A stretch of DNA of 64,000 nt from Marinifilaceae bacterium (GTDB lineage: Bacteria > Bacteroidota > Bacteroidia > Bacteroidales > Marinifilaceae): contig JAFGYE010000066.1 in the NCBI GenBank assembly GCA_016936255.1, positions 62,001-126,000 on the forward strand, read 5' to 3'. Positions 33,383 to 42,899 of this stretch are shown here, in pieces. How positions within the stretch are numbered: the first letter of the stretch is position 1; every line of letters begins with the position of its first letter. Made by a program: the position numbers and the translations under genes. The notes under the pieces were generated by a model. The model worked only from the letters and a program-made list of their open reading frames with translations, had not been told where the DNA came from and did no database searches.

Positions 33383-33453
33383 GGTCTCTTGGCCGAGTGG
33401 CTAGGCACCGGTCTGCAAAACCGTCTACGGCGGTTCGAATCCGCCAGAGACCT
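33383..33453 (+). tRNA. tRNA-Cys (GCA)
   Basis: A 71-base cloverleaf: acceptor GGTCTCT/AGAGACC, D arm GCC..GGC, anticodon loop CTGCAAA with anticodon GCA, T arm GCGG-TTCGAAT-CCGC, and discriminator U as usual for Cys. CCA is not encoded. The outermost anticodon-stem pair is C-U by my fold. The 3' end is the insertion point of the island; its sequence is regenerated by the island, so the tRNA stays intact. Confidence 0.95.
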
Positions 33454-33454
33454 C
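33434..33454 (+). repeat. attL (tRNA-Cys 3' end)
   Basis: The left copy of the 21-base repeat ends in TCCGCCAGAGACCTC and lies in the T arm and acceptor stem of tRNA-Cys. The right copy is at 52371-52391 and differs by A versus G at one position. Confidence 0.88.
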
Positions 33455-33678: not shown

Positions 33679-35184
33679 TTAGCTTCTTCCAGTTAATACA
33701 TAATTGATTGTTAATCCTTTCCTATTAAATAAATCATGTTGTTTTTGTGCAGAAACTAAAAGACTATCTATTTCGCCTTCAGGTTCATCCCATAAGTTGT
33801 GATTAAACATCCTATCAAGAGAGGCGTCTATCCTATCAATCTGTTCTTGATTGAATTTTTTCCGATAAAGTAATTTATCTCGTTCGTCTTGTGAAATCAT
33901 ATTACAGGCATTGATTATTATATCTTTTAAATATGTAGACCAAGTTAGGACTGATCCTTTATGCCATATTCTTCTCGATTTCAGTTGAGTATTTGTCAAT
34001 GAACTATTTCTCTTTTTTGATGCCCAATTTACAAGATTCCCTTTTTCAACAAGTAATTTTGAAATAGTTTTGAAATTTTCATTTTCACTATCGCGATAAT
34101 CAAATTCAGATTTAAAATGTGCTTTTGAAGGGGTAAGGTGTAAAGTATTCGGAAAAATTGTTTTACCAAGTAGATCATCAGTTATTGGAAAATTTGAGTC
34201 TCTTGAAGCAATTGCGATATATTCCTTTAATACAGATAATTCTTTTGCTTGTGTTTTAATAGCACTTATAAGCATTTTTTTAGCTTCAGCCTTTGTGTAT
34301 TGTTGTTCTGAAACTAAAAAATTAACGAAATTATCTTCAGTATGGGTTTCTGGTAGTGTTGTTTCAATAAATTTATCTAGAAATTCTTTATGAATTTCAG
34401 ACAGTTTCTCTAAAAGCGTTGATGTATAAAATGGTATTTGTTTGTGTTTCGAATGAGCTTCTAAATTAGTAATCATTAATTGGTCAAAAAGAAGTTTGCT
34501 TTTCTCTAGATCAGAAGGTGATATATATATCTTCACATCAAGCTCTGTTTCATTGTTAAGAATTTGTGATGCAAATTTATGCTGTCCATCAAAAAGTTTT
34601 ATCTTTTTATCAACCAATCTTGCAATTGATGGTGCCAATTGAGGATGTGTTTTTAGATGGTCTCTAAGTTTTAATAATCTACTATAAACAATATATCTTG
34701 GTTGAAGACCTTTTTCATCGTCATTCTCAATCCATTTATTTTTCACTCGTGCATAAAAATACTCTGCATTTAAAAGCTTATCAAAGTATACAGGGTAATC
34801 AATATTATCTATTCCATCATCTAATGAAATCGTCCCATTTTCTCTTTTCACAGAGAAATTTTTATGTTCTACCTGTTTTAAATCAAAAATATCTTGAAGT
34901 TTAATTTTATTATTCTTCTCAATAAATAATCTTTCAAGTTTCAGATTGTCTCTTATATCATATAATGTCAGGTCTGATTTTCTGCGATTATATTCTTTTT
35001 TAACAATTCTAATATTTTCCAATGAAGTTTCACCTTGCTTAGCGAAAGCTTGAATATGATCATATTCAATTACATCGTCATCACCAATAACTTCGCCAGA
35101 GATGAAGCACTTCAATGTTCCATCAGTATCAACTTGCTGTTTTCTTACTTCTTCTTTTTCCTTTTCAGATAATTGTCGTTTCAT
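33679..35184 (-). CDS. HNH nuclease fused to a DGQHR-type domain
   Basis: A 501-residue protein with two visible parts. Residues about 20-72 look like an HNH nuclease: LKCFISGEVI, EYDHIQAFA (catalytic His43), ENIRIV and YNRRKSD. Further on, KIKLFDGQHKFASQIL (DGQHK at 199-203) matches the DGQHR motif of DndB/DpdB proteins of DNA phosphorothioation and deazaguanine systems, here with Lys for Arg. The C-terminal 250 residues are helical with no motif I know. No Dnd or Dpd partners are present, so it may be a single-gene nuclease defence; that is inference. It stands alone, convergent with tRNA-Cys. Confidence 0.72.
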   Translation of the reverse strand: MKRQLSEKEKEEVRKQQVDTDGTLKCFISGEVIGDDDVIEYDHIQAFAKQGETSLENIRIVKKEYNRRKSDLTLYDIRDNLKLERLFIEKNNKIKLQDIFDLKQVEHKNFSVKRENGTISLDDGIDNIDYPVYFDKLLNAEYFYARVKNKWIENDDEKGLQPRYIVYSRLLKLRDHLKTHPQLAPSIARLVDKKIKLFDGQHKFASQILNNETELDVKIYISPSDLEKSKLLFDQLMITNLEAHSKHKQIPFYTSTLLEKLSEIHKEFLDKFIETTLPETHTEDNFVNFLVSEQQYTKAEAKKMLISAIKTQAKELSVLKEYIAIASRDSNFPITDDLLGKTIFPNTLHLTPSKAHFKSEFDYRDSENENFKTISKLLVEKGNLVNWASKKRNSSLTNTQLKSRRIWHKGSVLTWSTYLKDIIINACNMISQDERDKLLYRKKFNQEQIDRIDASLDRMFNHNLWDEPEGEIDSLLVSAQKQHDLFNRKGLTINYVLTGRS

Positions 35185-35921: not shown

Positions 35922-36530
35922 TTAATTTTTATATTTCTCAATCCAAACTTGCATGTTTTCAATTATGTCACTAAAAGTTAGAGCATATATATCTTTTGGA
36001 TTGTATCCATTATCTTTTAATATTTCTTCATAATCATACTCAAATTCATTGTATGCTAGCCAGATTTCCTTATACATGGGAATATTTGCAAGACTCGATC
36101 TAAACCAGTCTCTTACTCCTTTTACCAATTGCTCTGGTGATTCGTTATGAGCTTTAATATCATTCCCTGAAATATCAGAAATTACTTTTTGATAACGGTA
36201 TCGTTCCTTTTCAAGGATTAAGAATTTTTTTTCTCCATAACCATTTAAGTTTGATAACTTAAATCCAAAATCAATACCACATTCGAATGGCATGTTAAAA
36301 CGAGGCAAATCATTCTTCTTTAAAGGCTCCATTCTAGAAAGATCATGTATTGAATATTTCGATTCAGACATTAGGCTTTTAAGCTTATTTAGTCTTACCT
36401 CGCCAGAGTCAGATGTTTCTGATATTTTTGGAACTAAATCCATATAGATTACTGTAAATAATAAAGGCTTTAATAAAGGGAAAAACTGATTGTCGAATGG
36501 ACAATTTATAAATACATTTTTGATGTCCAT
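35922..36530 (-). CDS. FINCPFD-motif protein, likely nucleotide-binding fold, unknown role
   Basis: 202 residues. The N-terminus NVFINCPFDNQFFPLLKPLL is followed by SDSGEVRLNKLKSLM, YSIHDLSR, and LPRFNMPFECGIDFGFKLS, then a helical end. These blocks form a widespread family often seen in defence islands. The alternating strand/helix order with an Asp in the first loop, a glycine-free switch and a conserved Glu after FNMPFE recalls TIR or nucleoside-deoxyribosyltransferase folds, but I cannot show enzymatic activity. It starts five bases after the DUF2188 gene, so the two are translated together. Confidence 0.72.
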   Translation of the reverse strand: MDIKNVFINCPFDNQFFPLLKPLLFTVIYMDLVPKISETSDSGEVRLNKLKSLMSESKYSIHDLSRMEPLKKNDLPRFNMPFECGIDFGFKLSNLNGYGEKKFLILEKERYRYQKVISDISGNDIKAHNESPEQLVKGVRDWFRSSLANIPMYKEIWLAYNEFEYDYEEILKDNGYNPKDIYALTFSDIIENMQVWIEKYKN

Positions 36531-36535
36531 AAAAT

Positions 36536-36784
36536 CTATTTTTTAGTGTTTTCTTGAATCGTACCATCTTTTTTATGAACGATTATTCTATCACCTGATT
36601 TCATGGTTTTTGCTAAAGAAATTGCTGCAGATTTAGTCGGAGAAACAGAGCTTGCTCTTTTTGAACCTTCTTTTTTAACAGACCAACCACTATTACTTGG
36701 AACAACATGAATTCTGCTATTTTTTGTTGAAGCCGCTTTTTTAAAGCTTTCTGTTAATTTCCTTTTTGTATTTAATTTACTCAT
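36536..36784 (-). CDS. DUF2188 protein
   Basis: 82 residues. The DUF2188 core is RIHVVPSNSGWSVKKEGSKR followed by ASSVSPTKSAAISLAKTM and RIIVHKKDGTIQ: a small alpha/beta domain of unknown function whose family is known for the GW.VK.EG pattern. The N-terminal 20 residues are a basic extension. First gene of the three-gene minus-strand cassette, five bases before the FINCPFD gene. Confidence 0.82.
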   Translation of the reverse strand: MSKLNTKRKLTESFKKAASTKNSRIHVVPSNSGWSVKKEGSKRASSVSPTKSAAISLAKTMKSGDRIIVHKKDGTIQENTKK

Positions 36785-37092: not shown

Positions 37093-37728
37093 TCACTTAA
37101 TATCTAAATGTTTCGCAAAATGATTTAAATCATTAATTAAAATTATTTTATCAATCATTCTGAAATTTTTGTAACAGATACAGTGCTTTCCTGAATTACA
37201 TTTTTTTAAAGAAATACCACTCCCACAATAACATAAATCGTGTATACGTAATTTAGTTTTCTTGATTCTGTCTAAAATTAGCCTTAGAATTAAGCGATCA
37301 TTATTTATTTCCAAAATATCCCGATATCCTTCAACTATACCAAATGAGTTATGTGCATACTCAGCCGTTCGATATTTTCCATTTAACTCAAAATAAGAGT
37401 TGTTCTGAAAATATGGAATTACAATTTCCTTGATGAAGTGGTAAAGACTCGTTATTTTTGTTTTTAATAAGACTTGTGCTTTTGCTTGTGTAGTCAAACA
37501 ACATGATTCAGTATCGGAATAAGTATGCCTTTTTAATGTTTTAGGTATTCGTTCTCCAATCTCATAAACAATTGGAAATTGAGTCGGATATCTATCCAAC
37601 TCAATTTTCACATCATAAGAATCCTTACGAGTAATGTATAATTCACCCACAATAGTATTAGTTAGAGAATCATACAACAGTTCAGGATAATTATTCAATA
37701 CTACATCAACCTGATCTTTAAGCTCCAT
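37093..37728 (-). CDS. CBASS E2-like protein with SEC-C zinc motif
   Basis: 211 residues. Residues about 8-150 resemble the ubiquitin-conjugating (E2-like) component of type II short CBASS: RYPTQFPIVYEIGERIP, then HTYSDTESCCLTT with the likely catalytic Cys76/77, FIKEIVIPYFQN, and EYAHNSFGIVEGYRD. The C-terminus carries a SEC-C zinc motif (CYCGSGISLKKC...H.C). In such operons the E2 is thought to prime the CD-NTase by conjugation without an E1 or JAB partner, and none is present here. It overlaps the CD-NTase gene by 11 bases. Confidence 0.75.
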   Translation of the reverse strand: MELKDQVDVVLNNYPELLYDSLTNTIVGELYITRKDSYDVKIELDRYPTQFPIVYEIGERIPKTLKRHTYSDTESCCLTTQAKAQVLLKTKITSLYHFIKEIVIPYFQNNSYFELNGKYRTAEYAHNSFGIVEGYRDILEINNDRLILRLILDRIKKTKLRIHDLCYCGSGISLKKCNSGKHCICYKNFRMIDKIILINDLNHFAKHLDIK

Positions 37729-38743
37729 AAGGTTTTGGCTTTATGAGTGTAGAACTAATTATTTTGCCAAGGTTTTCACTTTTTGTTTCTTCTTCAATAT
37801 CCTCTCCCAAAGGAAATCTTTCCCCAAATTGATTATTCCTTAAAATTTCAGAAGCAGTTTTAAAATTTTTCTCTTGTTTAGTTCTATCTAAATCATTTAA
37901 TAAGCTCTTTAAAGTTGCTAGAAATTGGGACTTTCTACTCTCTGAATAATCTTCGAAAACATCATGATCTTTTGGTGTCGTAGGACGGAGACACTTAAAA
38001 CCTTTACTTAGCTCTTCATCCATCTTTCTAACAGTTTCACGAAATGCAGTATCATCATTATCATCTTCAAAATAGTTGTTTGTTGCTAAAATAGTTAACT
38101 CGAAACCACTAGGTAATTTCAGATTAGTGTTCTTCCATTCATGAAAGTTTTTCCAGCCTTTAAGATATCTTACAATTCTCTCTAATTGAGAATTCTTCTT
38201 ATTATTAAACCATTCATAGAATTCTTTAGGATCACTAAGAATCCAATCTTTCGATTTATGAGCAAGTTCAATAATACCTTCCTTTTTGTAGTAGATTGGT
38301 AAATCAATATGGTGACAATCATTAAACAAGACTCTAATACAGGTGGTTTTCCTAATCGGATTTTTATCTGTGTGGTTTTCAACTGAGCTATACACCCAAT
38401 TATGCCATGTTTCAATCGTTTTTTTATTGTCAGAATCTTCTTCCTCTTTTTCTATAAAGTACACTCCATAATCCAAATCATATTTCAAAAGCTTATTTTC
38501 ATTTTCATCATAAACTGGAATAGGATTTATTGTTGTTCCCATTTCAAAAGAACCCTGCCCATGAAATTTAGGCTGTAAGTCCTCTGGTTTATTATCCTTA
38601 AACCATTTACGGATTTTTCTTTTTATATCATTACGACTTTTCTTTAAGCTATCAATACGTGCTGACGTAAGCTTAATCTCTTTATTGTACTTTATAAATT
38701 CTTTATGCAATACTGTCATCTTTTTTTTTATTTTAAAATTCAT
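37718..38743 (-). CDS. CBASS CD-NTase (DncV-like oligonucleotide cyclase)
   Basis: A 341-residue nucleotidyltransferase that should make a cyclic nucleotide alarm signal after phage infection. Catalytic set: GQGSF (Gly64-Ser65), YDLDYGVYF (Asp89, Asp91) and HIDLPIYY (Asp147), with MGTTINPI after the GS motif, as in the DncV clade. The C-terminal Gly-Ala end fits conjugation or contact with the E2-like partner. The product nucleotide cannot be predicted. Gene overlaps of 11 bases with both neighbours show one operon. Confidence 0.88.
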   Translation of the reverse strand: MNFKIKKKMTVLHKEFIKYNKEIKLTSARIDSLKKSRNDIKRKIRKWFKDNKPEDLQPKFHGQGSFEMGTTINPIPVYDENENKLLKYDLDYGVYFIEKEEEDSDNKKTIETWHNWVYSSVENHTDKNPIRKTTCIRVLFNDCHHIDLPIYYKKEGIIELAHKSKDWILSDPKEFYEWFNNKKNSQLERIVRYLKGWKNFHEWKNTNLKLPSGFELTILATNNYFEDDNDDTAFRETVRKMDEELSKGFKCLRPTTPKDHDVFEDYSESRKSQFLATLKSLLNDLDRTKQEKNFKTASEILRNNQFGERFPLGEDIEEETKSENLGKIISSTLIKPKPYGA

Positions 38744-39353
38744 GTTCTAGATTATTGCTAATCCATTTAAAATCTACTAATTCACCTTTTGTTTGAAATG
38801 GCTCTCTGCCCGTATAATAATTACCAGAAAGAAATTTATCATCACCCTTTCTTAAAAATTTAATAATCTCAGTTCCATAATGAGGAGGAAATTTTTGATC
38901 TATACTACCATCATTCAAATAATTGTAGATAAATCGATAATGTTGTTCGTCTTCCGTGCGTTCAACAAACATTCCTTTACTTACAGAAAGAGAAGATCTT
39001 GCTCCATCTTGTTTTATTGTAAAAGATGAAATGGTAATGCGGTTTCCATTTTGGTTTATCAATTTCACCTGTTTAAGTTCTCCTTTTCTGGTAAGGCCTT
39101 TCTCATCATTATATTGATATTGCAAAGTTCCTTCGTATCTGCCCGAAAAATCATCAACCCAAAACATCCAAACAAAAGGCTTATATTTCCATAAATACTT
39201 AGAAATAAGAATTAACAAAATCGTTATAGTTCCTGATACTTTTATTGATAATTCCCAATGATCTTTGGCAAGATATAATGCAATAGCAAGTGTGCTGATA
39301 AAAGCGATCAACACACTTGGTTTGAAATAATTAAAATAGCTATTCTTCATCAT
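38733..39353 (-). CDS. cap15: Cap15-like CBASS effector (2TM + beta domain)
   Basis: 206 residues. Two membrane helices (about 11-28 and 37-53) are followed by a beta-rich soluble domain (about 65-206) with DDFSGRYEGTLQYQY, the layout of Cap15/S-2TMbeta effectors, whose beta-barrel binds the cyclic nucleotide and whose helices then disrupt the inner membrane. It precedes the CD-NTase with an 11-base overlap. The upstream 57-residue gene overlaps it by four bases (ATGA), so all four genes are coupled. Confidence 0.8.
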   Translation of the reverse strand: MMKNSYFNYFKPSVLIAFISTLAIALYLAKDHWELSIKVSGTITILLILISKYLWKYKPFVWMFWVDDFSGRYEGTLQYQYNDEKGLTRKGELKQVKLINQNGNRITISSFTIKQDGARSSLSVSKGMFVERTEDEQHYRFIYNYLNDGSIDQKFPPHYGTEIIKFLRKGDDKFLSGNYYTGREPFQTKGELVDFKWISNNLEHEF

Positions 39354-39523
39354 CTTTCTTTTCTGATTCCTTTAAATGGTTTCTCACTTGATGTTTTAAC
39401 ATCCATAAACTGTCCTGTGTCAGTATCACGTTTAGTCCACAATCCAGTTTTAGGATTTTTAATTTGTGAACGATTTCTGACTGCTCCTTTTCTACTGCAG
39501 TCTTTTGGTGGATTTGTCGCCAT
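39350..39523 (-). CDS. 57-residue protein leading the CBASS operon
   Basis: Reads MATNPPKDCSRKGAVRNRSQ, then IKNPKTGLWTKRDTDTGQFM and DVKTSSEKPFKGIRKER. The stop codon overlaps the cap15 start as ATGA, so it is translated first in the operon. The motif NPKTGLWTKRDTDTGxFMD with KPFKGxRKE is, from memory, a widespread small uncharacterised protein found near defence genes. It is rich in Lys/Arg/Thr with no hydrophobic segment. No function is known to me. Confidence 0.8.
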   Translation of the reverse strand: MATNPPKDCSRKGAVRNRSQIKNPKTGLWTKRDTDTGQFMDVKTSSEKPFKGIRKER

Positions 39524-39565
39524 AATTATTATTTTTATAGTTTAATAAATAGTCATCTCACCCTA

Positions 39566-39596
39566 ATACTAAAAACGTGACTCACGCTTTTAGTAT
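39566..39596. promoter_or_regulatory. 31-base palindromic operator candidate
   Basis: ATACTAAAAACGTGA (39566-39580) and TCACGCTTTTAGTAT (39582-39596) are inverted 15-base arms around one central base with one mismatch. It lies in the 87-base divergent region between the CBASS operon and the sigma-like/metallopeptidase operon, ending 15 bases before the latter's start. It is well placed to control both. Confidence 0.75.
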
Positions 39597-39610
39597 GTTA
39601 ACAGAAGATA

Positions 39611-40273
39611 TTGGAAACACTTAATCAAATAAAAACTACTTCTAGTATAGATTTACTAGCTTATATGGGCTGGAAAGATGAATATGCAGAAGAAGCTAAA
39701 GAAGCATTCCTAGAATTTGGTTATCGATTTGAAGAGTTTATTTTAAAAACAGCAGAGGTTTGTTGTTTTAGATGGAATTACAATGAAGTTGTGGCACTTG
39801 ACATCACAAAATGCACATTAGCACGAGTTTGGAAATACCCGACCTATAATCAGACTAAATCAAATACTAAAGATGTTAACAAAGGCATAAAATTATGGCT
39901 TGGTAAAATAATAATGACCCAATTAGCTAATCACCATAACAAGGGGACATGTTACGAGCCAAATAAAGAAACTGATTTATCTTTAATTTATACATTCGAT
40001 AACTTTATTGAAAAGGCTTCTGACTCTGAAGACTCTAGAAAAATAATGAAAACAAAACTTGCTATTGTTGAAGAAGCATTATCTCAACTCAGTGAAAAAC
40101 ATAGAATAATATATCTTACATATAAGCTATACACTCATCAAGGGAATAACATCCCCAGGTGTGTCAACAAAAAACTACAAGAAGAATTAGCACTCGTTTC
40201 TGGTTCAATAAGAAAGTATAAAGAACAAGCCAACAAGCAAGTGATAACCTATTTAAATAAAATCAATGGCTAA
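39611..40273 (+). CDS. Sigma-70-like factor
   Basis: 220 residues. The first half (AFLEFGYRFEEFILK, ALDITKCTLARVWKYPTYN, WLGKIIMTQLANH) matches sigma region 2 in order. The second half has EEALSQLSEKHRIIYLTYKL, then LALVSGSIRKYKEQANKQVI, resembling region 4 with its helix-turn-helix. A TTG start is the only one in frame after an upstream stop at 39,599. The next gene overlaps by eight bases. As the likely DNA binder facing the CBASS operon it may regulate it; target promoters are unknown. Confidence 0.72.
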   Translation: METLNQIKTTSSIDLLAYMGWKDEYAEEAKEAFLEFGYRFEEFILKTAEVCCFRWNYNEVVALDITKCTLARVWKYPTYNQTKSNTKDVNKGIKLWLGKIIMTQLANHHNKGTCYEPNKETDLSLIYTFDNFIEKASDSEDSRKIMKTKLAIVEEALSQLSEKHRIIYLTYKLYTHQGNNIPRCVNKKLQEELALVSGSIRKYKEQANKQVITYLNKING

Positions 40274-40607
40274 GAAGAATAAACTAAGCGGTTTAATCGA
40301 AGAAAATAATCTCGATATATGGTTGTGTTCTTCAGGTTATTTGTTTCCAAGAGACGAAAAAGAATTAGACACTTTTGAAAAGCTATATAAGAATTTTGAA
40401 TTTAAGCTTAAGGGTACAATTATTGATTACGGAGAAATTATTACTGGGGAAATTGAGCACAAAAGCAAGGTTATAGATCTTTTTTCATTTGAAAAAATGG
40501 AAATTGAAGAGCTTCGTTTTGCAGCCCGAAAAGGAGAAGAATCAATTCCTGATAAAATTCTAAATAAGATGAAAAGTAAACATCAAACTAAAAATGGAGA
40601 TAAATAA
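40266..40607 (+). CDS. 113-residue protein between sigma-like factor and metallopeptidase
   Basis: A soluble protein overlapping both neighbours (8 and 14 bases), so synthesis is coupled to them. It starts MAKKNKLSGLIEENNLDIWL and has acidic and basic patches, no membrane segment and no motif I know. Its place between a sigma-like factor and a regulator-cleaving peptidase makes an anti-sigma role thinkable, but nothing in the sequence shows it. Confidence 0.75.
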   Translation: MAKKNKLSGLIEENNLDIWLCSSGYLFPRDEKELDTFEKLYKNFEFKLKGTIIDYGEIITGEIEHKSKVIDLFSFEKMEIEELRFAARKGEESIPDKILNKMKSKHQTKNGDK

Positions 40608-41388
40608 CACTTCGAAAGTATTAATTAAAGAATTAGCAGAATTTATTGCTTTAGAATACGACGAAATACCAACTCCACTGGAAAAAATAATTGATTCAGA
40701 AGATCTCAAGCTTTTTTACGACGATTATGAAGATGCATTTGATGGAACATTAATATATGACAATGGGTATTTTATACATCTAAATACAAAAAAAGGAAAT
40801 AGACCCAATACACAAAGAGGGCGTTTCACTTTGGCTCATGAATTGGGTCATTATTTTATAGATAATCATCGAATAGGTCTCAGAAATGGATTACTAAAAC
40901 CACACCCATCAAAAAATAATACAAATAGTCATCAAAAAATTGAACGTGAGGCTGATTATTTTGCATCATGCTTATTAATGCCAGAAGCTAGGTTTAATAA
41001 TGACTGTGAAGGGTTTAAACATTTTGATTTTTCATTAATTGAAAATCTATCAAAAATCTACAATGTAAGTATAACAGCATGTGCAATTCGTTTTGCAGAT
41101 ATAGGAACTCATCCAATTATGATCGTATATTGTGAAGACAATAAAATAATTTGGAAATGGAATAGTAATGATTTTCCATATAGGTACTTAGCTGAACAAA
41201 ATTCAAAAATCCCTATAGATTCATTAGTTGGTCAATATTTCAATTTAAATACAGGAATTAAAAGAACAGAAAAATTATGGGCTATTGATTGGTTCGATGG
41301 TATTAGCAATGAAGATCTAAATAATACAATTTTTGAACACATAATTCCATACCGAAATAAAGCTTTAAGTGTAATTTGGGCAGATTAG
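40594..41388 (+). CDS. ImmA/IrrE-family metallopeptidase
   Basis: 264 residues. The zinc site is HELGH (His82, Glu83, His86) in FTLAHELGHYF, with the distal Glu in KIEREADYFASCLLMP. ImmA/IrrE peptidases cleave repressors or anti-factors after a damage or phage signal, and CapP of this family cuts the CapH repressor in CBASS loci. The C-terminal 120 residues may sense the signal. It is the third gene of the operon divergent from CBASS. No HTH of its own. Confidence 0.88.
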   Translation: MEINNTSKVLIKELAEFIALEYDEIPTPLEKIIDSEDLKLFYDDYEDAFDGTLIYDNGYFIHLNTKKGNRPNTQRGRFTLAHELGHYFIDNHRIGLRNGLLKPHPSKNNTNSHQKIEREADYFASCLLMPEARFNNDCEGFKHFDFSLIENLSKIYNVSITACAIRFADIGTHPIMIVYCEDNKIIWKWNSNDFPYRYLAEQNSKIPIDSLVGQYFNLNTGIKRTEKLWAIDWFDGISNEDLNNTIFEHIIPYRNKALSVIWAD

Positions 41389-41439: not shown

Positions 41440-42205
41440 AAGAAGACATTTAAACTTCGCCTTTGCCTAATAAATAGGGATGTTCAGCTAGTAAGTGCTA
41501 CATACAGAAAGCCGTTTTAAACGTGTATAAACGGGTTTCCGGTATTCTTGAGCAAGAAAAAAGCTTGTTTATTTGGAAAATAATTTCGCTTCTCCCCTAT
41601 ATATAGGGATGTTCAGCGAATAAGTGCATGATACAGAAACCCATATTAAACGGGTCTAAACGGGTTTCCGGTATTCTTAAGTAAAAAATAAGCATGTTTA
41701 TTTGGAAAACAACTTCTCTTTTGCCTTATAAATAGGGAGGTTCAGCGAATAGGTGCTTACTACAGAAAACCGGTTTAAACCCGTTTAAAATGGTTTCCGG
41801 TATTCTTGAGCAAGAAAAAAGCTTATTTATTTGGAAAAAAACTTCGTTTTTGCCTTATAAATAGGGGTGTTCAGCGAATAATTGCATAATACAGAAAGCC
41901 ATTTTAAACGGGTTTAAACCGGTTTAAGTATTCTTAAGTAAAAAATAAGCATGTTTATTTGGAGAAAAACTTCAGTTATGCCCCATAAATAGGGGTGTTT
42001 AGCGAATAAGTGCATAGTGCAGAAAACCGGTTTAAGACGTGTCTAAATGGGTTTCCGGTATTCTTCAGCCAGTAAAAAGCTTATTTATTTGGAAAAATAA
42101 TTTCACTTTTGCCCCATAAATAGGGGTGTTCAGCGGATAAGTACATACTACAGAAAACCGGTTTAAGACGGGTTTAAACGGGTTTCCTGTAGTATTGAGA
42201 TAAAT
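41440..42205. repeat. Six tandem copies of a 129-base non-coding unit
   Basis: Units recur with the ATAGGG landmark at 41474, 41603, 41732, 41861, 41989 and 42120 (period 128-131). Each unit has an AT-rich near-palindrome (CCCCATAAATAGGGG; perfect CCCTATATATAGGG in unit 2), GTTCAGCGAATAAGTGC, and a block ATACAGAAAACCGG...GTTTAAAC...TTTCCGGTAT. That block folds into a roughly 21-pair imperfect hairpin with about three fixed mismatches, followed by a smaller CAAG-CTTG hairpin. Copies diverge at many bases but keep the fold. No ORF. It fills most of the 896-base gap between the metallopeptidase and the serine recombinase. Confidence 0.9.
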
Positions 42206-42284: not shown

Positions 42285-42899
42285 TCAATTACACTTACTT
42301 TTTTTACTAACCTTTGAAATAGTATGTCGGGAACATCCAAGCATGTTCTGAATATAATTGTAGCTTTTTCCATCAATGAGCAAACTCTCAATTTTTCCTT
42401 GAAGCTCAATATCTTCGGGGCGACCTTTATATTTACCTAATGATTTTGCCTTTTGTACACCTTCGGATTGTCTGCGCCTCCTATCCACATAATCCTTTCG
42501 AGCCGTAGCGGCCAATATATCCAGCATCATAGAATTAATGGCATCAAGTATTCGTTTCTGAAATTCATCTGTAGATTTGGCAAAATTGTAACTGGTAGGC
42601 AAATCCATTGATATTATTTTTAGCTTATTGTCAATGATGATACTTTTTAACTTTTGCCAGTCGCTTTCAGACAATCTTGTTATCCTATCTATTTGCTCAA
42701 TCAAGATTGCATCATCCGGCTCTGCCATTTCCAACAATCGAAATAATTCAGGACGGTTCAATTTTGCACCTGATTCATTTTCGATAAACCAACCTGAAAT
42801 TCTTATTTGCAAATTCCCTGCAAAATCAATTAATGTGCTTTTAGCTCTATTTGCATCCTGATCTTTGGTAGATGCTCTTAAATATCCATATACTCTCAT
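42285..42899 (-). CDS. Serine recombinase (resolvase/invertase)
   Basis: 204 residues. MRVYGYLRAST carries the nucleophile Ser10; ESGAKLNRPELFRLLEMA and DDAILIEQIDRITRL complete the catalytic domain; a long E-helix follows, then ARKDYVDRRRRQSEGVQKAK and a C-terminal HTH (SYNYIQNMLGCSRHTISKV). Size and order fit small resolvase/invertases. The target is unknown; the six-unit array directly downstream and the inverted repeat directly upstream are candidates. Confidence 0.92.
   Translation of the reverse strand: MRVYGYLRASTKDQDANRAKSTLIDFAGNLQIRISGWFIENESGAKLNRPELFRLLEMAEPDDAILIEQIDRITRLSESDWQKLKSIIIDNKLKIISMDLPTSYNFAKSTDEFQKRILDAINSMMLDILAATARKDYVDRRRRQSEGVQKAKSLGKYKGRPEDIELQGKIESLLIDGKSYNYIQNMLGCSRHTISKVSKKSKCN

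Follow-up and report, generated by a model that had tools for sequence, protein, structure and literature searches.

A sigma factor-like protein and a small helical protein accompany CapP-like peptidases at bacterial immune operons

We analyzed a set of three overlapping genes that is divergent from a cyclic oligonucleotide-based antiphage signaling system (CBASS) in a Marinifilaceae bacterium (assembly GCA_016936255.1, contig JAFGYE010000066.1, positions 62,001 to 126,000 of the forward strand; this whole stretch of 64,000 nucleotides is referred to as the window). The trio lies on the plus strand and starts with a sigma-70-like gene of the extracytoplasmic function (ECF) type (39611-40273, 220 aa, TTG start). 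It is followed by the gene of a small helical partner with a conserved AAR motif (40266-40607, 113 aa, A87-R88), a putative anti-sigma factor and CapP substrate, and by the gene of a CapP-like M78 (ImmA/IrrE) zinc peptidase carrying the motifs HELGH and EREAD (40594-41388, 264 aa). The sigma and small genes overlap by 8 nt, the small and peptidase genes by 14 nt. On the minus strand, a 57-codon gene (39350-39523, MATNPPKD...) comes first, followed by genes for a Cap15-like two-transmembrane (2TM) effector (38733-39353; Cap15_CD_rec/PADLOC 2TM effector, 2.3e-93), a CD-NTase, i.e., a DncV-like nucleotidyltransferase (37718-38743; PADLOC cyclase, 4.2e-112), and an E2-like protein (37093-37728; PADLOC E2, 2.2e-63). 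With both a CD-NTase and an effector recognized by PADLOC, this operon is a CBASS. The original prediction had described an overlapping trio divergent from CBASS, and the coordinates of the open reading frames (ORFs), the two overlaps and the PADLOC matches confirm this gene order. It had included neither the 57-codon gene nor a 31-bp palindrome between the two units (ATACTAAAAACGTGA-C-TCACGCTTTTAGTAT, 39566-39596), which we propose as operator for both.

The peptidase of the window matches Pfam Peptidase_M78 (2.7e-15), the PADLOC model for CapP (3.3e-64, 214.7 bits) and the solved CapP structure 7t5t (2.2e-10). The HEXXH zinc motif and the distal Glu are present, and H82, E83, H86 and E117 are invariant in an alignment of four rows. 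By its sequence, the protein is CapP-like, in line with the earlier suggestion that the peptidase was kept at this locus. CapP enzymes are activated by single-stranded DNA (ssDNA) and cut a neighboring regulator (PMC13373217, PMC10904395).

In the known CapH/CapP systems, this neighboring regulator is CapH, a protein with a helix-turn-helix (HTH) domain. We fetched 80 CapP loci and found a homologous sigma-like ORF adjoining capP at 56 of them (hidden Markov model search); the arrangement is therefore more than chance. Among the remaining 24, an HTH CapH was recognized at 15 by reading, eight of them also by PADLOC. At three loci (L086, L088, L095), reading revealed a sigma-like gene that is more distant, with weak profile support for L086 and L088; another three (L034, L056, L058) lacked upstream sequence or a full gene, and three were unclear (L068, L069, L078). 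In a tree of 78 CapP proteins, the 15 linked to HTH CapH formed one clade (support 100/99), while the 60 rows labeled as sigma-type, five of which received this label by hand, fell outside. Overlapping frames recur as well: across 46 measured trios, the sigma and small genes overlap in 34 and the small and capP genes in 44, both being upper estimates based on the start codons of the longest ORFs. The sigma/small set thus takes the place of CapH at CapP loci, and therefore the suggestion of a control scheme other than CapH/CapP is upheld.

The second component of this scheme belongs, as judged from profiles and predicted fold, to the ECF-type sigma-70 family, an assignment supported at the family level. 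A profile built from the 220-residue protein and 46 relatives matches SigW (1.2e-13) and also region 4 of primary sigma factors (SigA/RpoH); among the 60 chains listed of 92 matches, all were named sigma factors or sigma chimeras. Pfam sigma region 2 was matched by 11 of the 47 family members and region 4 by 7, and the member from locus L062 exceeds the cut-off of the sigma70-ECF model (64.8 vs. 42.9 bits). The structure prediction of the window protein yielded a sigma fold with high confidence (predicted local distance difference test, pLDDT, 90.3). Foldseek gave 255 matches (for the 50 listed, probability 0.60-1.00 and best E 1.2e-3), and the titles of those 50 all name a sigma factor, a sigma/anti-sigma pair or RNA polymerase. 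Whole-chain TM-scores were low, which we ascribe to two domains joined by a flexible linker. Mean pair identity was 0.208 for region 2, 0.246 for region 4 and 0.119 for the linker, so that regions 2 and 4 are under similar constraint.

The 113-residue protein gave no match in Pfam and NCBIfam searches, and a sequence comparison with the PDB returned nothing under E 0.09. The PADLOC capH model (PDLC04142) assigns 29 bits to the window protein and matches 20 of 23 family members, compared with 84-104 bits for HTH CapHs (8 tested). Despite this capH label, we rejected an identification as CapH: profile comparison of the small family with ten HTH CapHs (hhalign) gave a probability of 0.3%, and neither Pfam nor this comparison revealed an N-terminal XRE-type HTH domain. 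The weak PADLOC scores and the profile comparison therefore place the small protein in a separate, conserved family under a shared label, and it seems that PDLC04142 combines the HTH CapHs with this second, non-HTH family. The predicted structure is all-helical with low confidence (pLDDT 68.5). Among 57 aligned small proteins (56 of the 58 representative loci defined below and L111; none was available for L008 and L113, and the L128 ORF is probably wrong), the Arg88 column contains Arg 55 times and Lys twice; Pro28 is conserved in 52 proteins and Gly24 in 47. Ten HTH CapHs likewise share one invariant Arg after the HTH (R89, 10/10). For PprI/DdrO, enhanced interaction requires an Arg located in the loop of the cleavage site (PMC10904395). 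By analogy, we infer that Arg88 may mark the cut site, and we consider the 113-residue protein a likelier CapP substrate than the sigma-like protein.

To characterize the operons faced by the trio, we searched with reference proteins on the opposite strand up to 7 kb upstream of 74 sigma loci, of which 68 could be judged and 6 had too little flank. Truncated, broken or doubtful sigma genes (L021, L039, L081) had been dropped before counting, and L007 and L009 were left out as evident duplicates of L035 and L040. An immune-type gene was found upstream at 50 of the 68 loci, 28 of them other than CBASS: CBASS 22, multi-ubiquitin (Bub-like) 16, Pycsar 4, DUF1508 4, ThiF 3, Wadjet 1 and none 18. 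In this count, immunity is not a proven function of the Bub operons (PMC13373217), and the same applies to YegP and bare ThiF operons, which we counted as immune-type. Since CBASS lies upstream at only 22 of 68 loci, the trio is not CBASS-specific; the tie to CBASS alone that had been suggested fails, and its more general version as a controller of immune operons stands. We also observed the trio facing a lone DUF1508 (YegP-like) gene at L036, L057, L059, L060 and L199, a partner also reported for CapK/CapS (PMC13373217).

The proposed operator is a conserved element. The window palindrome, whose arms flank a single base and are complementary at 14 of 15 positions, lies 14 nt upstream of the sigma start codon. 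The conserved half-site reads TGT[CA]ACG[GC]TTT-nnn-GTAT (TGTMACG-N6/7-GTAT). After clustering the 74 loci into 58 representatives at 75% sigma identity, inverted half-site pairs were found just upstream of the sigma gene at 33 of them. Because the score matrix was written by hand after viewing the sequences, we ran several controls. Shuffled sequences averaged 1.58 and never exceeded 6 of 58, other gene starts of the same loci gave 6 of 341, and the HTH-type CapP loci gave 0 of 15. A first, loose threshold had been useless (55 of 58 loci vs. a shuffle mean of 52.65), and a simple 5-mer test found 32 of 58 loci (shuffle mean 4.14, maximum 10). Other orientations occurred in the same regions, direct at 16 and everted at 12 of 58 loci, a result to be expected in part where palindromes are contiguous or a third half-site is present. 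When up to three mismatches are allowed, the full palindrome pattern has a single match in the 4.71-Mb genome, namely here. The half-site pattern is not rare by itself, with 2 matches (both in this palindrome) vs. 3 for the reversed pattern.

Contiguous pairs account for 13 of the 33, that of the window included, and in the remaining 20 the half-sites lie 8, 8, 9, 9, 11, 12, 15, 18, 19, 19, 19, 19, 20, 28, 30, 31, 39, 41, 43 and 43 nt apart. These spacings fit best to a period of 10.9 bp (R = 0.63, n = 20, p ~0.0014 against uniform spacing); this p-value is only indicative because some shared descent remains in the sample and the score matrix was adjusted by eye. The ATG is directly adjoined by GTATATAG or a similar sequence at nine Flavobacteriaceae loci. 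Two other readings of the element were considered and dropped. Ordinary divergent ECF promoters, with -35 and -10 in opposite half-sites (AAAACC-N16/17-GTATA), can account for contiguous palindromes only and do not match the spaced ones, and a sigma-54-like reading of TGTCACG does not agree with a sigma-70-like protein. As a separate observation, L025-L028 keep the outer GGTATAT blocks while the inner block is different and the region 4 recognition helix is changed, possibly a co-change of site and sigma factor.

We propose the following mechanism. In the resting cell, the small protein would act as an anti-sigma factor and keep the ECF-like sigma factor inactive. Infection or damage would produce ssDNA, a signal that we carry over from CapP and PprI, and thereby activate the CapP-like peptidase. 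The activated peptidase would then cut the small protein, probably at the conserved Arg motif in its C-terminal third, and the freed sigma factor would act at the intergenic palindrome, so that both CBASS and the sigma factor's own operon would be transcribed more strongly. A cleavable anti-sigma factor is the best reading of the small protein because CapP cuts a neighboring regulator and the Calp protease frees a sigma factor. We give this chain of events, from cleavage of the anti-sigma factor by CapP to the switching on of CBASS, an even chance of being correct.

Several observations weigh against it. The 220-residue protein of the window has no Pfam sigma hit when searched alone and scores 12.8 bits against the sigma70-ECF model (cut-off 42.9); the sigma-70-like partner of the original prediction thus holds at the level of family profile and fold, and the window protein itself stays below the curated cut-offs. 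Region 2.2, the core-binding region, is partly degenerate: a Gln is kept in 17 of 58 sigma-like proteins and is Lys in the window, at a position that we take to be the equivalent of sigma-70 Q406. The blocks of the half-site lie 6-7 nt apart, about one turn, whereas ECF promoters have a spacer of 16-17 bp, and a clear -10 was not seen at ECF distance from the half-site; judged by sequence, both speak against a textbook ECF promoter. Helically phased inverted half-sites fit a cooperative DNA-bound regulator, whereas a sigma factor needs no phasing. Additionally, no immune gene was found in the stretch searched at the 18 loci mentioned above. One of them, L054, which has a JetC-like gene downstream by reading, carries the palindrome even though a divergent immune gene was not found.

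Some of these points would be accommodated if CapH had been split, with the sigma-like protein as a DNA-bound repressor and the small protein as its dimerization or co-repressor subunit, so that the pair would occupy both half-sites until a cut of the small protein by CapP dislodged it and derepressed both promoters. We retain this explanation as possible, albeit doubtful, because the operator is symmetric, phased in helical steps (10.9 bp) and close to the start codon (14 nt in the window) or abutting it (the nine Flavobacteriaceae loci). The block spacing and the degenerate region 2.2 agree with it, as does the fact that CapH, the replaced partner, is a repressor (PMC13373217, PMC10904395). 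However, region 2 is still constrained, which would be needless for a pure DNA-binder, and some members, such as that of L062, are ordinary sigma factors by the curated cut-off. Moreover, the half-sites could be promoter elements read by the holoenzyme, and the precedent of CalpS is that of a released sigma factor (PMC12751052).

We consider it improbable that the small protein serves to inhibit the peptidase or acts as its antitoxin, with the sigma factor itself or a regulator elsewhere as substrate. The fixed gene order with its small/capP overlap (44 of 46) and the low-confidence, partner-dependent model of the small protein would suit such a role, but CapP-family enzymes act on a neighboring DNA-bound regulator (CapH, DdrO, ImmR), and the window has no further regulator between the trio and the immune genes. 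It is equally improbable that the trio acts as a free-standing stress regulator, has separate targets and merely tends to sit in defense islands: loci without an upstream immune gene would be explained, but the 50 immune-type loci comprise several unrelated kinds facing the same operator, and the palindrome pattern occurs at one place in the genome.

While gene order is confirmed, the interpretation given in the original prediction is, as a whole, partly supported. Beyond the release of a sigma factor in the window, we tentatively suggest a broader picture, which we hold with considerable reservation: a sigma factor may have replaced the HTH repressor at CapP immune operons, may read a phased half-site pair with a geometry unlike that of an ordinary promoter and may be released by proteolysis of its small partner, forming an exchangeable controller across Bacteroidota, Planctomycetota, Verrucomicrobiota and relatives of Chlorobi, plus a divergent second lineage.

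This second lineage was found among 395 genomes of the window's class. A CapP-like hit (1e-25 or better) was detected in 15 of these, of which eight, including the window's own, carry the trio and seven, by reading, another sigma-like/small/M78 layout that is more divergent (L194-L200, i.e., loci L103, L104 and L106-L110), with weak sigma profile support where tested. The operon faced by L194 is a type III CBASS, with a cyclase that is a close relative of its L044 counterpart (9e-196), and a DUF1508 gene is found opposite L199. Among 194 nearer relatives, the sigma protein of the window was matched in only 5 genomes, its own included, and it had no match in any of the seven other genomes of the same genus; therefore, the locus is patchy. 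A scan of viral contigs yielded 80 loci, mostly with other M78 proteins, and a sigma gene at 9.

Further features were observed around the window locus. The 57-codon gene had no match in Pfam and NCBIfam searches and has homologs at seven other loci, all eight being classed as CBASS. Behind the E2 gene lie genes for a DUF2188 protein (36536-36784, minus strand; PADLOC candidate PDC-S16) and a 202-aa protein without annotation (35922-36530, minus strand), which are possible further members of the immune operon. A 501-aa protein (33679-35184, minus strand) with a weak HNH match below the cut-off and a nearby tRNA-Cys (33383-33454) could mark an island edge. On the other side, a tandem array (41452-42191, period 129 bp, 5.7 copies) separates capP from the gene of a serine resolvase (42285-42899).

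Immune operons that kill their host need tight control. If our proposal is true, CapP could be coupled with a repressor at some loci and with a sigma module at others, the latter being commoner among the CapP loci collected (56 of 80), and the sigma module would offer a direct handle on the switching on of CBASS, Pycsar and multi-ubiquitin operons in Bacteroidota. Independently of this, users of the PADLOC capH model should be aware that it also catches an unrelated small protein.

Our literature search found no paper describing a sigma gene with CapP; it did not cover the founding CapH/CapP paper, so that an earlier mention is possible. Compared with CapH/CapP, the trio has a homologous peptidase (PADLOC capP, 7t5t) in the same position, adjoining and divergent from the same kinds of operon (CBASS, Bub; PMC13373217). 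It differs in that two proteins, one sigma-like and one small and helical, stand in for the HTH CapH, and in its operator, given the absence of the half-site pair at the 15 HTH loci. PprI(IrrE)/DdrO and ImmA/ImmR likewise pair an M78 peptidase with a neighboring regulator that is cut on DNA damage (PMC10904395, PMC10233336), but their substrates are HTH repressors rather than a sigma-like DNA-binder with a non-HTH small protein. CapK/CapS and CapW/BrxR are also divergent or upstream controllers of immune operons, YegP-type genes included (PMC13373217), but consist of kinase/STAS or WYL proteins without a peptidase or sigma factor. In type III CRISPR immunity, CalpL cuts the anti-sigma factor CalpT and frees the sigma factor CalpS (PMC12751052). 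This is the same layout of protease, small partner and sigma factor in anti-phage immunity, with sigma release proposed here, and the CalpT/CalpS route would by analogy be linked to the control of CBASS, Pycsar and multi-ubiquitin operons. However, CalpL is a SAVED-Lon protease activated by cA4, whereas the trio has an M78 peptidase with ssDNA as expected signal. Unlike in the Calp system, no CRISPR genes were seen among the ORFs adjoining the window trio, and the trio faces CBASS, Pycsar or multi-ubiquitin operons instead.

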